From contig NZ_AP024086.1 of the NCBI RefSeq assembly GCF_019703855.1, positions 2,934,501 through 2,998,500 on the forward strand: a DNA stretch of 64,000 nucleotides. The letters are read 5' to 3'. Made by a program: the position numbers and the translations under genes. Position 1 is the stretch's first letter, and each line of letters begins with the position of its first letter. The DNA is from Desulfomarina profundi (GTDB taxonomy: Bacteria; Desulfobacterota; Desulfobulbia; Desulfobulbales; Desulfocapsaceae). Of this stretch, positions 1-53,652 are shown piece after piece. A model generated the notes under the pieces. It was not told the origin of the DNA. It did no database searches and worked only from the letters and a program-made list of their open reading frames with translations.

Positions 1-224
1 CCTGTTACTTGAAATACACTCCTGTAAGCTTAAAATTCCTCCCACAGCCAGATACATAATAAATATTTTTAATTTTTATATACAATTTTTTTTATATTAG
101 AGTTACAATACTATAACAGTTTTCTGCACCGCCATCTTCCCCAATCGCCATCCTCCACCCCGCCTGCTGCAACGGGGAAGAGCGCAGGCAACTATCCTTC
201 CACCCTTTACACAGGAGAATTGCC

Positions 225-42401: not shown

Positions 42402-43035
42402 GTCTCAATCCACGCCCCCGTGCAGGGGGCGACTGATCATTGGCAAACAGAGGTCAGGTCCGGTCGGTTTCAATCCACGCCCCCGTGCAGGGGGCGACGT
42501 ATACCTGGTGTGACGGATGTATACCAGGTGCGACTGTTTCAATCCACGCCCCCGTGCAGGGGGCGACATACCAAATGCGCATATTTGTTGAAACATGGGT
42601 TGTTTCAATCCACGCCCCCGTGCAGGGGGCGACTTACTTGGAGCTGCGCTTGAAAATGCGACAAAGTGGTTTCAATCCACGCCCCCGTGCAGGGGGCGAC
42701 ATGTTCGTTTTTCCGGGTGGCTGCAAGCTGTACCGGTTTCAATCCACGCCCCCGTGCAGGGGGCGACGTCAGCTCAAACTGGATGGTCTTCCCACTTGAT
42801 TCAGTTTCAATCCACGCCCCCGTGCAGGGGGCGACTGGCCCTGTCTTTTAAAACTTGATCTGGTACGCTGTTTCAATCCACGCCCCCGTGCAGGGGGCGA
42901 CAAATGCCCGGAGACCTGGGCCTGAGCCAATAAAAGTTTCAATCCACGCCCCCGTGCAGGGGGCGACGGAGAGCGATAACAAAACTAATAGATTTTTGGG
43001 AGGGTTTCAATCCACGCCCCCGTGCAGGGGGCGAC
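42402..43035 (-). CRISPR. Type I-C CRISPR array, 10 repeats and 9 spacers
   Basis: A 32-nt repeat starting GTTTCAATCCACGCCC and ending GGGGGCGAC on the plus strand. Repeats begin at 42402, 42467, 42536, 42602, 42669, 42736, 42804, 42870, 42936 and 43004; spacers are 33-37 nt. The centre forms a GC-rich hairpin. Read on the minus strand the repeat ends in ATTGAAAC, the type I-C handle, so transcription runs leftward from the leader beside cas2. Nine repeats are identical; the leader-distal one (42402-42433) has one change (GTC for GTT), as expected for the oldest end. Confidence 0.97.
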
Positions 43036-43252: not shown

Positions 43253-43543
43253 TTATACCAGCAATAATCCCTCCTGATCCACTCCCGGTTTGGCACCCAC
43301 ATGCTCTACCCGCCGCTTCCAGTTGGAACCAAGATAATAAAAACGCAGGCTGTCGGTCTCCGGATCAATTTCATCAACCAACTGCTGACGCATCACGGTC
43401 CATTGTGCTGGATCAACCAAACACTCAAACACAGAAAACTGCACCCGCTGACCATAATTCTTGCAAACCTTGGCTACCCTGCGTAAACGCCGCCGGCCTG
43501 CCTTATCAGTAGTGGATACATCATAGCTCACCAACACAAACAT
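43253..43543 (-). CDS. cas2: CRISPR-associated endonuclease Cas2 (type I-C)
   Basis: A 96-residue protein of normal Cas2 size. It starts with the ferredoxin-fold strand MFVLVSYDVST, including the conserved Asp, and has the family's QRVQFSVFECLVDPAQW and RFYYLGSNWKRRVEHVG. Cas2 forms the adaptation complex with Cas1 that inserts new spacers. Nine nt separate it from cas1, and the leader and array follow directly. Confidence 0.95.
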   Translation of the reverse strand: MFVLVSYDVSTTDKAGRRRLRRVAKVCKNYGQRVQFSVFECLVDPAQWTVMRQQLVDEIDPETDSLRFYYLGSNWKRRVEHVGAKPGVDQEGLLLV

Positions 43544-43552
43544 ATAAACACC

Positions 43553-44584
43553 TCACTGCCAACAAAACACGGGATAGCCGTCCAAATCGCCCCGGACATG
43601 CCGGGCCAGGAGCAGGGCCTGGGTATGGAACAGCAGGCCAATGGGCATCTTCTTCTGCAAAAACGGGTGGGTGACCACATCCTGCTTGCGCTTTTGATAG
43701 GCCACCAGCACGGCCTTACGAGTATCGTCGTCCATCAACACGGCCCCGGTCTCCGCCTTCCGAAAGCCCTTACTTTTAACCTGACCAAGATTTACCAGGG
43801 ACAAGGCCAGGCGATCGGCAAAGTAGGGCCTGAATTCTTCCATTAAGTCAAGGGCCAGACCAGGCCTGCCCGGTCGATCCCGATGCAAAAAACCTACTGC
43901 CGGATCAAGCCCCGTACATTCGAGGGCAGAGCGGACATCATGCATGAGCAGGGTATAGAAAAACGACAACAGACAATTGACCCGATCCAGCGGTGGTCTG
44001 CGGCTGCGCCCTTCAAAGAAAAACTCCTTCTTGCGATTGAGAATCAAGTGATCGAACACTCGAAAATAGATCATGGCCCCCTCCCCTTCGTAGCCCCGCA
44101 GCCTGTCGAGCGAAGTACCGACGCGGACATGCATGAGAATGGCCTTCAGGCGATCCATGGCTTGTTTTACACTAACGGTATCCACCTTATCAGGATGATC
44201 ACGCACCACTCGATGCAGCACTTTGCGGCTGTTGACAAGTTTGCCGATGATCACGGCCCTGGCAATTGCCGCCGACCGCTCCGGATCATCCGCCCAGCGG
44301 TACTGCTCCCGACGCAATAGGACGTTGCCGGAGACCGGGCCTTGAACCCGGGCCAGGAACCGGCCATTTTCCGTGAGAAAACTGATGCAGACATCCCGCT
44401 CCGCGCAAAACCCCATGAGAAACGGGCTACACGAAACCTGGCCGAAACAGACAATCCCGTCCAGAGTGTGAATGGGAAGCTGCAAACGTACCTTACCCCC
44501 AACTTTGACAGCTACAGTCTCACCCTCTTTGGCGAGCCAGGCCCCCTGGGTAGTCACAAATAGAGTGTTAAGATGTTTTTTCAT
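43553..44584 (-). CDS. cas1: CRISPR-associated integrase Cas1 (type I-C)
   Basis: A 343-residue protein. Cas1 inserts spacers at the leader end. Family marks include LNTLFVTTQGAWLAKEGET at the start, RLRGYEGEGAMIYFRVF (catalytic Glu), VNCLLSFFYTLLMHDVRSAL, a GFLHRDRPGRPGLALDLMEEF segment (cited by ends; catalytic His and Asp) and the C-terminal YPVFCWQ. It overlaps the cas4 stop by one nucleotide (TGATG). Confidence 0.95.
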   Translation of the reverse strand: MKKHLNTLFVTTQGAWLAKEGETVAVKVGGKVRLQLPIHTLDGIVCFGQVSCSPFLMGFCAERDVCISFLTENGRFLARVQGPVSGNVLLRREQYRWADDPERSAAIARAVIIGKLVNSRKVLHRVVRDHPDKVDTVSVKQAMDRLKAILMHVRVGTSLDRLRGYEGEGAMIYFRVFDHLILNRKKEFFFEGRSRRPPLDRVNCLLSFFYTLLMHDVRSALECTGLDPAVGFLHRDRPGRPGLALDLMEEFRPYFADRLALSLVNLGQVKSKGFRKAETGAVLMDDDTRKAVLVAYQKRKQDVVTHPFLQKKMPIGLLFHTQALLLARHVRGDLDGYPVFCWQ

Positions 44585-45213
44585 CAGTCAGCCATCATCC
44601 GCTTGAGATACCGTTCCACCCGGTGAGGCTTTTCCAGGGTTTTCGGCAAACATAATTCCTTCAAAGAGCAGGAATCGCATTTTTTGTCATACAAGGGTGG
44701 CGGGGTTCGGGCCGAAGCGATCAGCTCGTGGAGACGGGCCGATGTTTCTTCGGTCTCGGCCCGCAGGCAAGAATCGAACTCAACTGACTGCCGTCGCCGG
44801 TTCTTGCCATAAAACAGAGCCCCTTCCTTCACCTTGACTCCCAATGCCTCTTCGAGGCAAATCGCCTGGGCACAAAGCTGCACTCGGTCCCAGTTCTCCT
44901 TCTTGGGCCGGCCCCGCTTATGCTCCACCGGAAAGGGCAGCCACTCTCCCGATTTCTGCTGGTGAAACTCCACCACATCGGCCTTGCCGACCAGCCCCAG
45001 GCGCATGGAGCGCAGGGGCATGGCACACACTGTACGGACATTGCCCCTCCTCTCGTGACCGCCACTATCCACCCGCTCATGCATCAACCGCCCTTGAGCA
45101 GTAAAAAGATTCTCCACCCAGAGCTGCTCCACATGGATCAGGGCGCACTGCCGCTCGCAGAAGAGGAGGTGCTGCAGGGCGGAGAGAGGCAGGAGATCGT
45201 CTTCAGCAAACAT
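44584..45213 (-). CDS. cas4: CRISPR-associated exonuclease Cas4 (type I-C)
   Basis: A 209-residue RecB-type nuclease that trims pre-spacers. It has the first cluster Cys pair FCERQCAL near residue 20, the nuclease core (GKADVVEFH, PVEHKRGRPKK, QLCAQAICLEE) and the C-terminal Cys group KKCDSCSLKELC for the 4Fe-4S cluster. The start may be ATG 45213, or GTG 45216, which overlaps the stop of the RhuM-Fic gene by one base. Either way cas4 translation is probably coupled to that gene. Confidence 0.93.
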   Translation of the reverse strand: MFAEDDLLPLSALQHLLFCERQCALIHVEQLWVENLFTAQGRLMHERVDSGGHERRGNVRTVCAMPLRSMRLGLVGKADVVEFHQQKSGEWLPFPVEHKRGRPKKENWDRVQLCAQAICLEEALGVKVKEGALFYGKNRRRQSVEFDSCLRAETEETSARLHELIASARTPPPLYDKKCDSCSLKELCLPKTLEKPHRVERYLKRMMAD

Positions 45214-45215
45214 CA

Positions 45216-46190
45216 CTACTCCCCGGAAATCAGATGGGTAATCAGCCGCACCAGAACATCCTTCTGGCCCGGATCACTGGCCGCGATTAAAAGAGTCAGG
45301 GCCACCAAGGCATTATTGGAGAAGCGACGCTGGACTCTCAAACGGTTTTTCCGCAGAAAGAGCAGAAACAAAAATGCACCGATGCGCTTGTTGCCATCGC
45401 TGAACGGGTGATCCTTGATGACAAAGTAAAGAAGATGCGCCGCCTTGAGGGCCACACCTGGATAAAGATCGTGACCATCGAAACTCTGGCCCACAGCACC
45501 GAGAATAGCGGCCAGTCCCTCACCGCGCTCCTGGCCGAACAACTCTGTGGCCTCGCCCTTGTGCAAGAGATCTGCCTTGAGACTGGCGATGGCCGCGCGC
45601 GCCCCGGCAGGATCGGGCACCACCCCATCGGTGTCCGGTTCGGTCGGAAGCGCCAGCTGGTCTTCGTCGTACTGCAACAGAAGATTCCAGGTCGCCGCGT
45701 AAGTGGAGACGATCTCCAGCACGGCCCGGCCTTCATCGTTTACCAAGCCGTGGGTTTCCAGGGTACTGGACAACAGGGAAAGAACCTCCTGTAACTCACT
45801 GGTTCCTTTCTCTGCCAGACGCTTTTGATTGAGGGTGTATCCGTTGACTAAATGGTCCTTGAGTACAGAAGTCGCCCAGATGCGGAACCGGGTACCGCGC
45901 CTGGCATTTACGCGATATCCCACGGCGATAATTACATCAAGGTTGTAATGATTTGTCTGATATGTTTTCCCGTCGGTGGCAGTATGTGCAAATTTTGCAC
46001 ATACTGCCGTTTTCTCCAGTTCACCGGTTCTGAAGACGTTGTTTATATGTTTGGTAACTACACTCCGCTCTGCCCCGAAAAGATCCGAGATTTGTTTCTG
46101 AGTAAGCCAAACCATCTCATCTTTAAGTCGCACATCAATTTCAAAACTTCCATCCTCGGACTGATAAATAATAACCTGGCCCTGGTTCAT
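45216..46190 (-). CDS. RhuM-Fic/Doc protein inside the cas operon
   Basis: A 324-residue protein. The N-terminal half (about 1-125) is the RhuM domain: MVWLTQKQISDLFGAERSVV, KHINNVFRTGELEK and a VNARRGTRFRIWATSVL stretch, DNA-binding-like and common in phage and defence loci. The C-terminal half (about 150-324) is a Fic/Doc domain with HPFSDGNKRIG (His261 to Gly271). The NKR form, with Lys where Fic AMP-transferases have Gly, resembles Doc kinases that inactivate EF-Tu. No (S/T)xxxE(G/N) inhibitory motif was seen. It follows cas7 by 166 nt and runs into cas4. Standard type I-C loci lack it. Confidence 0.9.
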   Translation of the reverse strand: MNQGQVIIYQSEDGSFEIDVRLKDEMVWLTQKQISDLFGAERSVVTKHINNVFRTGELEKTAVCAKFAHTATDGKTYQTNHYNLDVIIAVGYRVNARRGTRFRIWATSVLKDHLVNGYTLNQKRLAEKGTSELQEVLSLLSSTLETHGLVNDEGRAVLEIVSTYAATWNLLLQYDEDQLALPTEPDTDGVVPDPAGARAAIASLKADLLHKGEATELFGQERGEGLAAILGAVGQSFDGHDLYPGVALKAAHLLYFVIKDHPFSDGNKRIGAFLFLLFLRKNRLRVQRRFSNNALVALTLLIAASDPGQKDVLVRLITHLISGE

Positions 46191-46356
46191 GCCTGTTCTC
46201 CGTTCAGCTATTTACCCCGCATCCTTTTGACGTTCTCCGGCCTGATCCTGGGGACCGAGATGGGCTGAATTATTCGCCGTTATGTGGAATCCTTCTGACT
46301 CCTTCACTCTTCTTAATGCAACAAGTTTTTTTCCCATCCCATCCCCACTTGCCATA

Positions 46357-47387
46357 TCAGATTTTCTCGACCAGGCTGACACCTGCCGGGGCTTCCCCCA
46401 CCGTCACGGTGTAGTCGGCAAAGGAACGGGGCGGGGTGTCACCGCAGATTTTCTCGACCGTCACCAGGTCAAAGAGTTTGCTAGCTGGGGCATTGCCGAG
46501 TTCGGAATCATGTTTGAAGATAATGAGTTTCCGGGCTGCCATCTCGCCCCGGGCGGCGGAACGGTCGTGGTCGAACATGTTCACCAAGGCATCCCAGAAC
46601 AGTTCAAGGTCGTCTTCTGAGAATCCAGTCTGTTTTGCGAGAGGCGCCGAAATGAAGCCGTGGGCCCGGTATAATCCGTAGGGAACTATGGCCTTCCTTG
46701 CTCCCAGACCTTTGTCATTCGGCTCTTCAACTCTAACTGCCGCTGTACGGAACATCGCCACATCAAGGCCGACTATAGGATCAATACTTCTGGCAAATGC
46801 AAGCTGAACTGGCCCGCGAACCTGACCACAGGTTTTGTCACCTGTAGACATCACCGCCCCGAATGTACGAACATCAAAAAAGTTTTTACACATCCATTTC
46901 TTGGCCACAGCTGCCTTACTATCCACAAACAGCTCTTTCAGCTTCGCTTTTGCGGCATCTGATATATCTTTCAATTTATTGACAGCCTTTTTGGCCTTTT
47001 CTGTATCGATGCACAGCTGAAGATAAATCCCCTCATTTTCAAACCCAATACCTTCTGGGTATCCCATATAGTTTTTCAACTCATCCTGTAAATCCAAAGG
47101 AACATGGATAAATAGCTTTTCATCATCCAAGGCTTTATGTGCCCTTCTGTGATGCTCCGATAAAAAGGCACCTTCGCGGACATGTATTTCATATGGCGAA
47201 ACATTTTTTTTCACCAAATCTACATAATTTCTGACCTTTCGCTTCAAGCAGACATCGGTGGTAATGCCGTGGCCAGTCTCGGGATCTATCCGGGGCAGGT
47301 TTCCGCCATCAGGATCACCGTTGGGGTTGCCGTTTTTTACGTCAAACAACAGGACAAACTCATAACGATTATTCACTGGCTCACTCA

Positions 47388-47388
<1 letters not shown>
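46357..47388 (-). CDS. cas7: Cascade backbone protein Cas7 (Csd2), type I-C
   Basis: A 343-residue protein that lines the crRNA in the type I-C effector. It starts NRYEFVLLFDVKNGNPNGDPDGG, cited here by ends (key residues NGNPNGDP), with DVCLKRKVRNYVDL, NFFDVRTFGAVM, RGPVQLAFARSIDP and GFISAPLAKQTGFSEDDL. It is about 50 residues longer than the usual Cas7c; the extra part is a helical, Lys-rich segment at about residues 100-155. Its start overlaps the cas8c stop by one base (TAATG). Confidence 0.94.
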
Positions 47389-49747
<2,359 letters not shown>

Positions 49748-51918
49748 TTAGCCGAAAAACGCGTTGCCTTGCGGCGGTTTGCATTTTAGCCCCGTTGTGT
49801 CCGAATACAGCTCGGATGAACGAAGTACCCATATTTCCGGGATCGGCTCTTCCAGCCAGTCCCTGATTTCATCAAGTTGATACGGATAAATCTGCACCGT
49901 GAACTGCTGCAGTTTCCGTAAAATGCCGCCCTTATGCTCGGCCGCCTCCAAGGCACGCACCAGGTTCTGCGCCTTTTCATCCCCGGCAATAATCACCGGC
50001 ACCGACGCCGATTGGATCATCCTGAATTTTGCCAGCTCCCGAAACTGGATATCACCGGACTGGGCGGGCAAACAGATCGTGAGTATCCCGTCCCCGTCCA
50101 TCCGTTGTTCGTTATTCCAGAAAAAATCGGCAAAATAGGCCCGCACACATTCAGGGGCGGTCAACCGCCCTTCATATTCACCAAAGAGCTTGGCCGCCGA
50201 CTGGGCCGCCTGGCGGAAAAACGAACAGCCGCCGTCCTCCGGAAAGGCAAAGACAAACACCTTGCCCGGAACCTCGTTGCGGCCGTTTCTGTTACAACGA
50301 CCGGCCGCCTGGGCGATGGAGTCTATCCCGGCCACGGCCCGAAAGACACAGGGGAAGTCCACATCCACTCCGGCCTCGATCAACTGGGTGCTTATCACCC
50401 GGCAGGGACGCCCGCTCCCCGGCTGGAGCCTTTTTCGTATCTCCGTCAGTTTTTCATAACGATGAGCGGGATGCATAAGAGCGCTCAGATGGATGTTTGC
50501 ATCCGACTCCGGCAGGGCTTTAAAGATATCCAGGGCCTGCTGCCTGGTGTTTACCACGCACAGAACCTGTTCATGTTCCAACAGACGGGCTGCTACTTCA
50601 CCCTCGCTCAACTTGCCGACAAAGACCTCCTCCGTACGCTTCAAGGCCTCAAATAATCCCCCACATCCCGGATAATCTCCCGATCAATCTTCAGACCGGC
50701 AGGGAACTGCTCGCTCTGCTCAATGGCCGGTTGGGTGGCGGTGCAGAGCACGGTTGTTACTCCGTAATTTTTTGACAGCTCTTTAATTACTTCGAGGCAG
50801 GGTTTTAATCTCTCAACCGGTATGGCCTGAACCTCATCGAAAATCACTACACTATCGGCGATATTATGAAGCTTGCGGCATTTTGAGGTCCGGTTGCCGT
50901 AAAAGGAGTCAAAAAACTGGACATTGGTGGTGACCACCACTGGCGCGTCCCAGTTCTCCGCCGCCAATCTCGCCCGCCAATCCTTTTCGTCAACCAGAAA
51001 ATTACAATGATGTTCAAGCACAGCCTCCTCGCCCAGCATCTCCCGGAAGACGCCGGCGTTCTGCTCAATGATACTGGTAAAAGGGATGACGTAGATGATC
51101 CTCCTCTTGCCGTGTTTCTTGGCGTGATTCAAGGCAAAGGCCAGCGATGCCAAGGTCTTGCCACCACCGGTGGGCACGGTGAGAGAGAATATCCCTGGCT
51201 CCTCTTCTGCGGCAAGCAAACAGTCGGCCAGGACTTTTTCCCGCTGCTGATTGACCTTTAATCCAGGCTCGGCCATAACCCGCAACTTATTAAAATTGCG
51301 CCAAAAATGCTCATGGAGTTCCCCGCTGGCGGGATAAACACCCCGCCAGCCTGAACGCTTCGGATCAAGAAAGCGCTCCGTATCCAGAAAATCGGCATCC
51401 ACCAGGCAGGAAAAGATCATCCGGGTAAAAAACTGAAGCTGAAACCCGAATCGTTCCGGCTCAATGACACATGGGAGTTCTTCCACCAATTCCGATAGCT
51501 GGTGAGGGAATGCGATTTCTCCGGGAGGAGCAGCAAGTTTCTCCCGCAATGCCGCTGCCCTCCTGTCATCCCAGTTTGGCAAGCCGCCATGATGGCCAGC
51601 AACACAATAGGATAGAAGTTTTCCTGCCTGTTTTGAATGCTTAAATAGCCACTTTGCCCCTTCAATCGCATGACCAGGGTGCCCCTCGTAATAGACGCTA
51701 AATTCATCTTCAATACCGTTCATCCGCCGCAGATATGCCTGCCAAGTATTCGTTCCCTTGCCCACGTCATGATTCTCTCCGGCAGGAGCAGCAAAATTCT
51801 CACCACCAAAGGGCCGCGCGAACTTTGCCGCCATCTCAGCCACATTTTTCAGATGCTCTTCCAACTCCTGCCACTCCTCGGGCGGCCTGCCTTCCAGACT
51901 GTGAGCATAATATTTCAT
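49748..51918 (-). CDS. cas3: Cas3 helicase-nuclease, type I-C (one-base frame break)
   Basis: The repaired product is about 723 aa. The HD nuclease domain (about 1-200) has HSLEG, NHDVGKGTNTW and AGHHGG; the helicase has Walker A VPTGGGKT, the DEVQ box (IFDEVQAIP), CTATQP, and in the second half STQLIEAGVDVDFP and GRCNRNGR. The frame breaks at plus-strand C run 50658-50662: one more base gives D-V-G-G-L-F-E-A-L-K-R and joins both halves. If real, the lesion would remove helicase domain 2 and abolish interference, but a sequencing deletion is more likely. It begins 3 nt after the upstream helical gene. Confidence 0.93.
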
Positions 51919-51921
51919 CTT

Positions 51922-53652
51922 TCAAACCCCCATTCCTGTCAGCAGCGGTGAAGCAGCAACAGCCTCACGGACCTCGCGCCGAAAGGCCGAATACCGACTG
52001 AAAACCTGGTAATAGTATTTATGCAGCAGTTCCTTTGCCTCCTGCTTCGCTCCCTGCGCCACAAGCATCTCGGCCATGGCTCCCAGGGTGCAGGCGGCCC
52101 GATTATAGGCGTTGCGGTATTTGTTCGAGACAATATACTCCACCCTCTTCCGTCCGTTCTCCATGGTCGATGCCTGGTGGCGGATAAAATCCTCCCTCGT
52201 GATGTCAATTTCAGCCAGACCCTTGACAATCTGTTCATAAAATGAGGTGGCAGGTTCTTCGCCATCAGGATCAGTATCGCACCACAGCACGCTGTCAGCA
52301 TAGTCGGCGAGCATTTCGTTATTCAGGACGCAGCGGCTATCTCCCTTGGCGTTGCAATACAAAACCGCACAGAACATAAGGGCTCCGGGCGATCCGCCCG
52401 ACCAGCCATAGACCTTCTCTTCTTTGCAGAGGACGGCAAGGGACTGCAGATCTCCGATCATGAGAAAAGCTCTTGCCAGCAATGACCGAACATGATCCCG
52501 AATGCACCCTGTTCGAATAGTGTCGATGGCGCGCGCGATCTCCTCATTGCGAACATTTCGGCGCTCGGCTTCAGCCACGAGGTGAAGCAGATCCAGGACA
52601 TTGAGCGAGGATACAAAGGCCTCACGCCTGCCCGGCAGGACAAGATCCTCATCACCGCCCCGCCTGCCTGCTTCGACAAGGTACCCCGCAACCCGGCGGC
52701 GGGCAGATCCGACGGACAGGATGGCAAGGGCCTCCCGGGCTGCATCGGCCAGTTGGCGCCACTCCTCGTCTGCCGCAAGATGTTCCAGCCAGGCAAGATA
52801 GCCCACAGGTTGTTCTTTCTTCCAGTCGCGGGCAAGTTCGCGCACCCCGGCAATGCCGTCCTGCAGGAACGACGCCTCAACGCGCAACCGGGCAAGTCGA
52901 TCCGGCATGCGCCCATTTGCTGCCAGAACCTTTTGCCATTGTGTCAGAAAATCCGCCATACCCGGCAATTCACCGACCTGGGCATCAATGACATCCCGGA
53001 GCAGGGCCATGTCCATCTCCCTGAAGTTCTCAAAATCACCAACAGGCTCTTTGATTTTCATGGCCATCGCCATTTCCTGTGCCCGGTCACCGGGCCGGGA
53101 TGTTTCGTATACGGAACGACAATACCTGGCATGGGCCTCCCTGATATCCACTCCGATATCAGGCAAAAAGTCATACTCCTCTACTTTGCCGACCAATGAA
53201 AAAAGGGCAGCATAAACCTGCTTTGCCTCTATCAGCATTCCCTGACAAAAATACTCTCCAGCCTCTGCAAATAATTCTGCAAGTTCAACCATCTGGTCAT
53301 CGCTCAGGCACTCTGGTTCATCATCCCAATAGCCGTCATCCACATCATCAGGATCATCCCAGTAGGAGCCATCTTCTATGGAGGTAATCTTCGCCAGAAT
53401 ATTTTTTTCAAGCTCCTGAACCTTTCCGAGAAGCAGCTCCATTTGCTCCGGCTGATTCTGGTCATTGACCGATTTCCTGTCAGGCAAGCAGCGCATGAGC
53501 CTGGACAGATAATTTTGCCGTTTGTCCGAATCCTCCTCACTTGCCATGGCAACAATCAGAGCTATCAGCTCCTTTTTCTTCAAGCCGCCGCATATCTTTT
53601 CCACCTTCTCGAGATACGGCCGTAATAGCAGTTTTTCTCCGGTCATGCCCAT
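51922..53652 (-). CDS. Uncharacterised helical protein cotranscribed with the cas genes
   Basis: A 576-residue, largely helical soluble protein; its stop lies 3 nt before cas3. The N-terminus (KKKELIALIVAMASEEDSD) resembles a helical module found beside bacterial SWIM zinc-finger proteins; an acidic linker follows at about residues 92-115 (DDPDDVDDGYWDDEPE), then tetratricopeptide-like helical pairs to the end. No catalytic motif, signal or membrane segment was recognised. GGAGG before the start supports ATG 53652 or 53646. It is the first gene of the CRISPR operon, so it may be a regulator, scaffold or independent defence component. Confidence 0.8.
   Translation of the reverse strand: MGMTGEKLLLRPYLEKVEKICGGLKKKELIALIVAMASEEDSDKRQNYLSRLMRCLPDRKSVNDQNQPEQMELLLGKVQELEKNILAKITSIEDGSYWDDPDDVDDGYWDDEPECLSDDQMVELAELFAEAGEYFCQGMLIEAKQVYAALFSLVGKVEEYDFLPDIGVDIREAHARYCRSVYETSRPGDRAQEMAMAMKIKEPVGDFENFREMDMALLRDVIDAQVGELPGMADFLTQWQKVLAANGRMPDRLARLRVEASFLQDGIAGVRELARDWKKEQPVGYLAWLEHLAADEEWRQLADAAREALAILSVGSARRRVAGYLVEAGRRGGDEDLVLPGRREAFVSSLNVLDLLHLVAEAERRNVRNEEIARAIDTIRTGCIRDHVRSLLARAFLMIGDLQSLAVLCKEEKVYGWSGGSPGALMFCAVLYCNAKGDSRCVLNNEMLADYADSVLWCDTDPDGEEPATSFYEQIVKGLAEIDITREDFIRHQASTMENGRKRVEYIVSNKYRNAYNRAACTLGAMAEMLVAQGAKQEAKELLHKYYYQVFSRYSAFRREVREAVAASPLLTGMGV

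Follow-up and report, generated by a model that had tools for sequence, protein, structure and literature searches.

A RhuM-Fic gene recurrent between the effector and adaptation genes of type I CRISPR operons, a candidate second-line defence gene with a Doc-like toxin half

Doc of phage P1 phosphorylates EF-Tu, and self-inhibited Fic AMPylators (classes I-III) carry the inhibitory motif [ST]xxxE[GN]. RhuM is often fused to DOC in restriction-modification loci, and the fusion has been proposed to be the protein-modifying toxin of a multilevel defence program (PMC3710099, in the text available); this was the only relevant paper among those found on RhuM, Fic and CRISPR together. According to the available part of another report, RhuM ORFs lie between cas1 and cas9 of the type II-C locus of Bacteroides fragilis (PMC5704556). 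A coupling of immunity to dormancy has also been proposed, the toxin genes predicted for it being located for the most part within type III operons or close to them (PMC3506569). Toxin-antitoxin modules occur near cas genes (PMC10910872), DarTG2 lies inside a type I restriction system (PMC12255303), and PrrC is described in this literature as restrained by its restriction partner. As far as the excerpts of these three papers extend, they resemble the present case in placing a toxin-type gene in or beside an immunity operon; their toxins differ, and a slot of the cas7-cas4 type is not described in them.

The window analysed here is a stretch of 64,000 nucleotides from Desulfomarina profundi (contig NZ_AP024086.1, positions 2,934,501 to 2,998,500). 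As claimed in a first-pass annotation, it carries a type I-C operon in which a RhuM-Fic gene, here found intact, separates cas7 from cas4. Pfam and NCBIfam assignments gave the minus-strand order cas3 (two frames), cas5, cas8c, cas7, RhuM-Fic, cas4, cas1c, cas2 and array, with the following features:

42402-43035, no strand assigned: CRISPR array, 10 repeats of 32 bp, the outermost degenerate
43253-43543, minus strand: cas2 (Pfam, NCBIfam)
43553-44584, minus strand: cas1 of type I-C (Pfam, NCBIfam)
44584-45216, minus strand: cas4, with a GTG start sharing one base with the RhuM-Fic stop (Pfam, NCBIfam)
45216-46190, minus strand: RhuM-Fic gene, intact, 324 aa (Pfam matches)
45216-45905, minus strand: helical linker and Doc-like Fic half, codons 96-324 plus stop, the part that tracks CRISPR loci
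45384-45410, minus strand: Fic motif HPFSDGNKR, residues 261-269 (alignment)
45906-46190, minus strand: RhuM half, codons 1-95, the exchanged part, predicted from a weak fold match to be a winged-helix DNA-binding domain
46191-46356, minus strand: intergenic stretch between cas7 and RhuM-Fic, 166 bp
46357-47388, minus strand: cas7 of type I-C, Csd2 (Pfam, NCBIfam)
47388-49106, minus strand: cas8c, Csd1 (Pfam, NCBIfam)
49103-49732, minus strand: cas5 of type I-C (Pfam, NCBIfam)
49748-51918, minus strand: cas3 in two reading frames, 50641-51918 and 49748-50644 (Pfam, ORFs)

The type I-C gene set (cas5c, cas8c, cas7c, cas1c, cas4, cas2, cas3 and array) is complete in the window, with cas3 in frames of 425 and 298 aa that split near 50641 (window 50600-50760). 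The annotation had described a standard I-C order interrupted by RhuM-Fic. The order was confirmed, with two corrections: cas3 of the window is split by a frameshift, and in relatives the place between cas7 and cas4 very often holds an insert. In nearly all of 40 relatives cas3 is one long ORF of about 730-875 aa, L271 being split too. The split in the window reflects a sequencing error or else a cas3 that is inactive, and the locus may therefore not interfere at all. The proposed overlap of the RhuM-Fic stop with the cas4 start also held, one base being common to both (TAGTG, with an ATG directly after the GTG). No convincing promoter-, terminator- or operator-like site was found at 46100-46450, and no strong palindrome in the 166-bp gap. 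Beside RhuM-Fic we found no Phd-type antitoxin gene: the gap contains no frame longer than 54 aa, cas4 overlaps the other side, and short frames were judged by eye. Immediately before cas3 and in the same orientation, the window encodes a 576-aa protein (51922-53652) without Pfam or NCBIfam match; L275, L282 and L297 likewise encode similar proteins before cas3, and L289 has a short piece of one.

The RhuM-Fic protein matched the Pfam families RhuM (PF13310, residues 62-128, 82 bits, above cut-off) and Fic (PF02661, residues 219-279, 44.5 bits against a cut-off of 24); its match to the NCBIfam family TIGR01550 (DOC_P1) stayed below the family cut-off. The Doc-like NKR form of the Fic motif, noted at first pass, is present as HPFSDGNKR, and H261, D265, G266, N267, K268 and R269 are invariant in all 153 aligned RhuM-Fic copies. 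A sequence check of the window protein for the inhibitory motif [ST]xxxE[GN] was negative. The genome (4.3 Mb, one contig) contains no second match to the protein at E 0.001. Between the window and the closest copy, dN/dS of the Fic half is ~0.23 (0.063/0.274), indicating purifying selection.

Structure prediction yielded a whole-protein model with a pLDDT of 82.7 and a pTM of 0.61, in which the Fic half is predicted to have the fold of Doc from phage P1 (Z 14.2, rmsd 2.4, 120 residues). Further Doc structures matched at Z 13.9 and 13.8, against 7.7 at most for non-Doc Fic proteins. Both hallmarks of the Fic/Doc superfamily, the Fic fold (from the predicted model) and the Fic motif, are thus found in the window protein. 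A Foldseek search with the whole model also returned Doc as top match, at an E of only 2.3e-3, and a sequence search of the PDB returned 5 chains at E ≤10, every one a Doc or Fic protein, with 0.091 as the lowest E; the alignment from this search also shows the likeness to the motif of Doc. Modelled alone, the RhuM half matched, at Z 7.3, a plasmid partition DNA-binding domain (51 residues at an rmsd of 1.6) and, at Z 7.4, DdrC, a DNA-break-binding protein. Since both scores lie in the chance range, DNA binding by the RhuM half is something we infer, and DdrC was dropped as a model for this half because its Z of 7.4 is too weak. Compared with Phd-Doc of phage P1, the predicted fold and the NKR-type motif are alike, whereas the window has no Phd-sized ORF and its protein has additional RhuM and helical parts.

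The PADLOC profile PDC-S23 matched the window protein over its full length (residues 1-322, E 3.6e-125). PDCs were identified through 'guilt-by-embedding' (PMC12988326, in the portion available). Already known are the RhuM-Fic family as PDC-S23 and the embedding of genes in immune operons. The earlier statement that no role in type I-C had been described stands in part: we found no description of the slot, but the family is a listed defence candidate. In the published literature searched, preprints being outside the search, there was no description of an effector/adaptation slot common to types I-C and I-E, of a CRISPR-specific Fic lineage or of an exchange of RhuM halves; the source preprint of the PDCs (10.1101/2024.01.29.577857) may contain part of this. 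The RhuM-DOC fusion of PMC3710099 is the same fusion, placed in restriction loci in the text available, whereas that of the window lies in a CRISPR operon, and the Fic halves of the two settings separate in our tree. The B. fragilis II-C arrangement likewise has RhuM between effector and adaptation genes, but in a class 2 system, and its available text mentions no Fic half.

We next surveyed the order Desulfobulbales. A type I-C cas7 was found at E 1e-30 in 65 of 257 genomes; 72 regions cover the cas7 matches listed, and 47 of these were comparable in having cas7 and cas1 in one stretch. The other 25 were set aside, 23 because no cas1 was visible in the sequence read, mostly at contig ends (L088 and L101 have no cas1 within about 8 kb), and two, L122 and L124, because their cas7 scored below the family cut-off. 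Between cas7 and cas1, 23 of the 47 loci contain an intact RhuM-Fic gene, two a broken copy of full span (L068, L098) and four only a RhuM-side remnant. The remaining stretches hold Bro-N without RhuM-Fic (six loci), another Fic gene (three), other ORFs (two, L078 being doubtful) or nothing (seven). Among the regions set aside, intact RhuM-Fic was present in L046 and L103, a broken copy in L122 and remnants in L089 and L104. The recurrence of RhuM-Fic in this slot is far from chance, which refutes an arrangement confined to the present genome. The strand is that of the cas genes for all 24 single-piece full-length RhuM-Fic genes, 17 Bro-N stretches and four stretches of other Fic genes. Among the 23 loci with an intact copy, cas4 homology begins at most 49 bases from the RhuM-Fic stop in 15; the others have intervening genes, a displaced cas4 or a diverged cas4 start. 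Some I-C regions contain more than one insert, with PIN/Phd-type, YoeB/ParE-like, HicA-like, Gp49-like or YhcG genes. RhuM-Fic is dispensable, because seven of the 47 slots are empty and six copies are broken or reduced to remnants. Nor is it a core cas gene in the sense of being present in most loci of the subtype, being intact in 23/47 loci of the order and in 0/29 outside it. A HEAT-repeat protein whose C-terminal part has no assignment occupies the same slot in L085 (2360-3226) and L087 (2392-3288; both numbered with cas7 on the plus strand).

As a control for the other junctions, the stretch upstream of cas7 was read in 40 loci, and ORFs of at least 60 aa on the cas strand were scored. 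Recognisable cas8c was present in 28; in the other 12, an unrecognised ORF of 340-793 aa after cas5 was taken to be a probable diverged Cas8. No clear insert was found at the cas5|cas8 or cas8|cas7 junctions of the 40 loci, L292 being ambiguous (ORFs of 62 and 340 aa), and both junctions are too closely spaced to offer much room on either strand. At the cas3|cas5 junction, three of the 40 loci, all from a single genus (L271, L276, L292), have ORFs of at least 190 aa, whereas those of L262 and L277 measure 67-79 aa. The spacing between cas1 and cas2 was 7 to 151 bases in the 43 loci showing both genes. Inserts thus concentrate at the boundary between interference and adaptation genes. Upstream of cas3 rather than in the slot, a RhuM-Fic-like stretch was seen in L295 and Bro-N in L294.

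That the gene is a feature of type I-C, as first assumed, was contradicted by its presence in type I-E loci, in one I-F locus and in many type I restriction operons. A cas1e was found at E 1e-40 in 24 genomes of the order, the equivalent slot being that between cas6e and cas1e; type identity was established by NCBIfam for L205 (cas7e, cas5e, cas1e, cas2e) and for cas6e of L209. An intact RhuM-Fic lies just upstream of cas1e in 5/24 (L304, L305, L310, L313, L318; L313 also has Bro-N), and a RhuM remnant in one (L317). Bro-N occupies this position in 10/24 (L301-L303, L306-L308, L314-L316, L319) and is in pieces in L312. L311 has a DUF1016/YhcG-like gene and L309 a gap without assigned gene; in L320-L324 the slot is empty and cas5e precedes cas1e. 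Identity between the Bro-N proteins of I-E slots and the Bro-N queries, which came almost entirely from I-C slots, reaches 86%. Bro-N, which corresponds to PADLOC PDC-S13 and is found in both kinds of slot, is possibly as interesting as RhuM-Fic. Of 10 type I-F loci, three of them breaking off shortly past cas6f, a single one (L230) carries RhuM-Fic, placed immediately behind cas6f and ahead of the array. A distant RhuM-Fic in L146 starts 16 bases after cmr3 of an apparent type III-B locus.

Another 57 copies of the order, taken from outside the I-C regions, were placed as follows: 19 by type I restriction genes, seven in I-E loci, four beside cas4 at broken or partial I-C loci, and 27 elsewhere or unassigned. 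A draw of 297 genomes from the phylum gave 56 with an I-C cas7 at E 1e-60; 30 of the 57 matches were examined, one being from the same order. None of the 29 I-C loci outside the order has a RhuM-Fic of the window's kind in the slot. In 21 of them cas4 lies within about 215 bases of cas7, and the others hold a RhuM-only protein (two), Bro-N (one), a weak Fic match (one) or an unassigned gap (two), cas4 not being found in two. In L333 and L353, which belong to the 21, the flank shows no cas1, so that these two may still have an insert behind cas4. Among the best 80 of at least 580 GTDB relatives, 25 lie beside type I restriction genes and only two beside I-C cas genes, L125 (Desulfobulbus alkaliphilus) and L144 (uncultured Desulfobacteraceae). 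A phage origin was considered and rejected: 129 viral-contig stretches encode a relative, but among the best 80 only five match beyond about residue 190, the best of these with 44% identity.

The two halves of the gene differ in ancestry. A tree was built from 153 RhuM-Fic copies, after removal of seven rows with stops or of insufficient length and five duplicates. BLAST-based context labels were I-C (29), I-E (7), restriction (41) and other (76, a mixed group that includes L230 and L146); since all copies were found by likeness to the window protein, the sample is weighted to the order of the window. A Pfam scan of 112 of the 153 neighbours of copies labelled 'other' returned scattered families only. 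A single clade of 44 copies (SH-aLRT 99) unites all 36 from I-C and I-E loci and has no restriction-labelled member. The other eight are L230 (I-F), L219 and six copies of one genus (L206, L207, L210, L212, L214, L028); the stretches read around these six contain no cas genes or arrays, and likewise no cas genes were present in that of L219. With the alignment split at residue 95, the Fic side kept the CRISPR clade (36/36, support 99). In contrast, a single CRISPR clade was rejected for the RhuM side (77 rows; log-likelihood 288 lower, p-AU 2.8e-19), the details of the RhuM tree being unsure because this side has few columns. The nearest RhuM core of the 36 CRISPR copies is a CRISPR copy in 27 cases, a restriction copy in five and another in four. 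Thus, the toxin half tracks CRISPR loci, and the half that resembles a DNA-binding domain has been exchanged. Between the 36 CRISPR copies and 12 sister restriction copies, only position 232 passed the 85% rule for separating residues.

Judging from sequence identities, the window gene is itself a chimera. In comparison with G070, from a different family of the order, nucleotide identity is low in cas7 (0.678, dS 1.81) and codons 1-95 (0.646, dS 1.67) and high in codons 96-324 (0.897, dS 0.27), cas4 (0.925), cas1 (0.907) and cas2 (0.906), placing a recombination point inside the gene. The RhuM core of the window (26-95) is closest to that of the restriction-embedded L211 (84%), whose Fic half is only 60% identical, and its Fic half is closest to that of the CRISPR-embedded L079 (90%). 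Partial RhuM-Fic pieces in 74 slots numbered nine in eight loci (L066 twice, L067, L074, L083, L089, L094, L104, L317), leaving aside L068, where three pieces span the gene. All nine are RhuM-side and none is Fic-only; since other parts of these genomes do contain matches to the Fic side alone, the one-sidedness holds for slots only. These remnants fit a costly Fic half, and deletions entering from the cas4 side could also have produced them.

We consider that RhuM-Fic may be an embedded second-line defence gene, a Doc-type toxin in an accessory slot of type I CRISPR operons, and on the sequence comparisons we give this reading about an even chance of being correct. The common strand and mostly tight spacing suggest that the gene is read together with the cas genes. 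The RhuM half would recognise DNA, either its own operator or an infection signal, and keep the toxin silent. Infection, or a disturbance of the operon or its products, may act as the trigger, upon which the released Fic half would modify a translation factor by analogy with Doc. The cell would then become dormant, which would gain time for CRISPR or limit phage spread. The nearest published ideas, in the text available, are the RhuM-DOC toxin (PMC3710099) and immunity-dormancy coupling (PMC3506569). The matched toxin half suggests that its restraint or activation may involve something peculiar to CRISPR loci. A more far-reaching version strikes us as unlikely: the slot would be a docking place for exchangeable toxin-like back-ups, with a CRISPR-specific toxin half restrained by Cas proteins or their expression and a sensor half swapped with restriction-operon copies to follow phage signals, as a modular sensor-toxin guard common to innate and adaptive immunity.

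Toxin-like genes might instead be selfish, entering a tolerant gap of an expressed operon and being maintained through addiction or drift, independently of CRISPR function. Such hitchhiking would explain the unrelated cargo of the slots (Bro-N, other Fic families, YoeB/ParE-like, HicA-like, Gp49-like and YhcG genes, and PIN genes with Phd/YefM-like partners on the opposite strand), the frequent decay and the presence of the family in type I restriction operons. It does not readily explain why the CRISPR Fic halves form one lineage apart from the restriction copies, why every full-length RhuM-Fic and Bro-N stretch of the 47 loci lies on the cas strand, or why inserts largely avoid the other internal junctions; we regard it as possible, with a probability well below even. 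An action of the RhuM half on transcription or translation of cas4-cas1-cas2, the Fic part being secondary, appears rather improbable. This regulatory role is consistent with the position just before cas4 or cas1e, often overlapping or with short gaps, with retention of the RhuM side in remnants, and with occupation of the same slot by Bro-N, which weakly matches phage anti-repressors. However, no promoter or operator was seen at the window junction, the catalytic motif is invariant, and cas4-cas1-cas2 run insert-free in 7/47 loci.

The conserved gene body could alternatively serve as a recombination handle through which effector and adaptation modules swap between operons, since the switch from diverged to close sequence between the window and G070 falls inside RhuM-Fic. 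Only one clear event was found, and the proposal accounts for a by-product, not for the retained catalytic motif, making it very improbable. Guards of the CreTA type, known for CRISPR-Cas (PMC9458426, in the part available), offer another model, in which a degenerate repeat near the gene would give rise to a crRNA-like antitoxin and Cascade would silence the toxin. The best repeat match at 46101-46450 in the window was 18/32, within the range of shuffled sequences (average 16.2, maximum 21), and for the window we consider this model hardly credible.

In conclusion, these results suggest the presence of a second, exchangeable defence line within CRISPR operons. If RhuM-Fic acts together with CRISPR, it would provide a built-in dormancy arm for a DNA-targeting type I system. 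The testable candidates that the slot offers are few, namely RhuM-Fic, Bro-N, other Fic genes and YhcG, and the split ancestry points to the Fic half for dependence on CRISPR and to the RhuM half for signal recognition.
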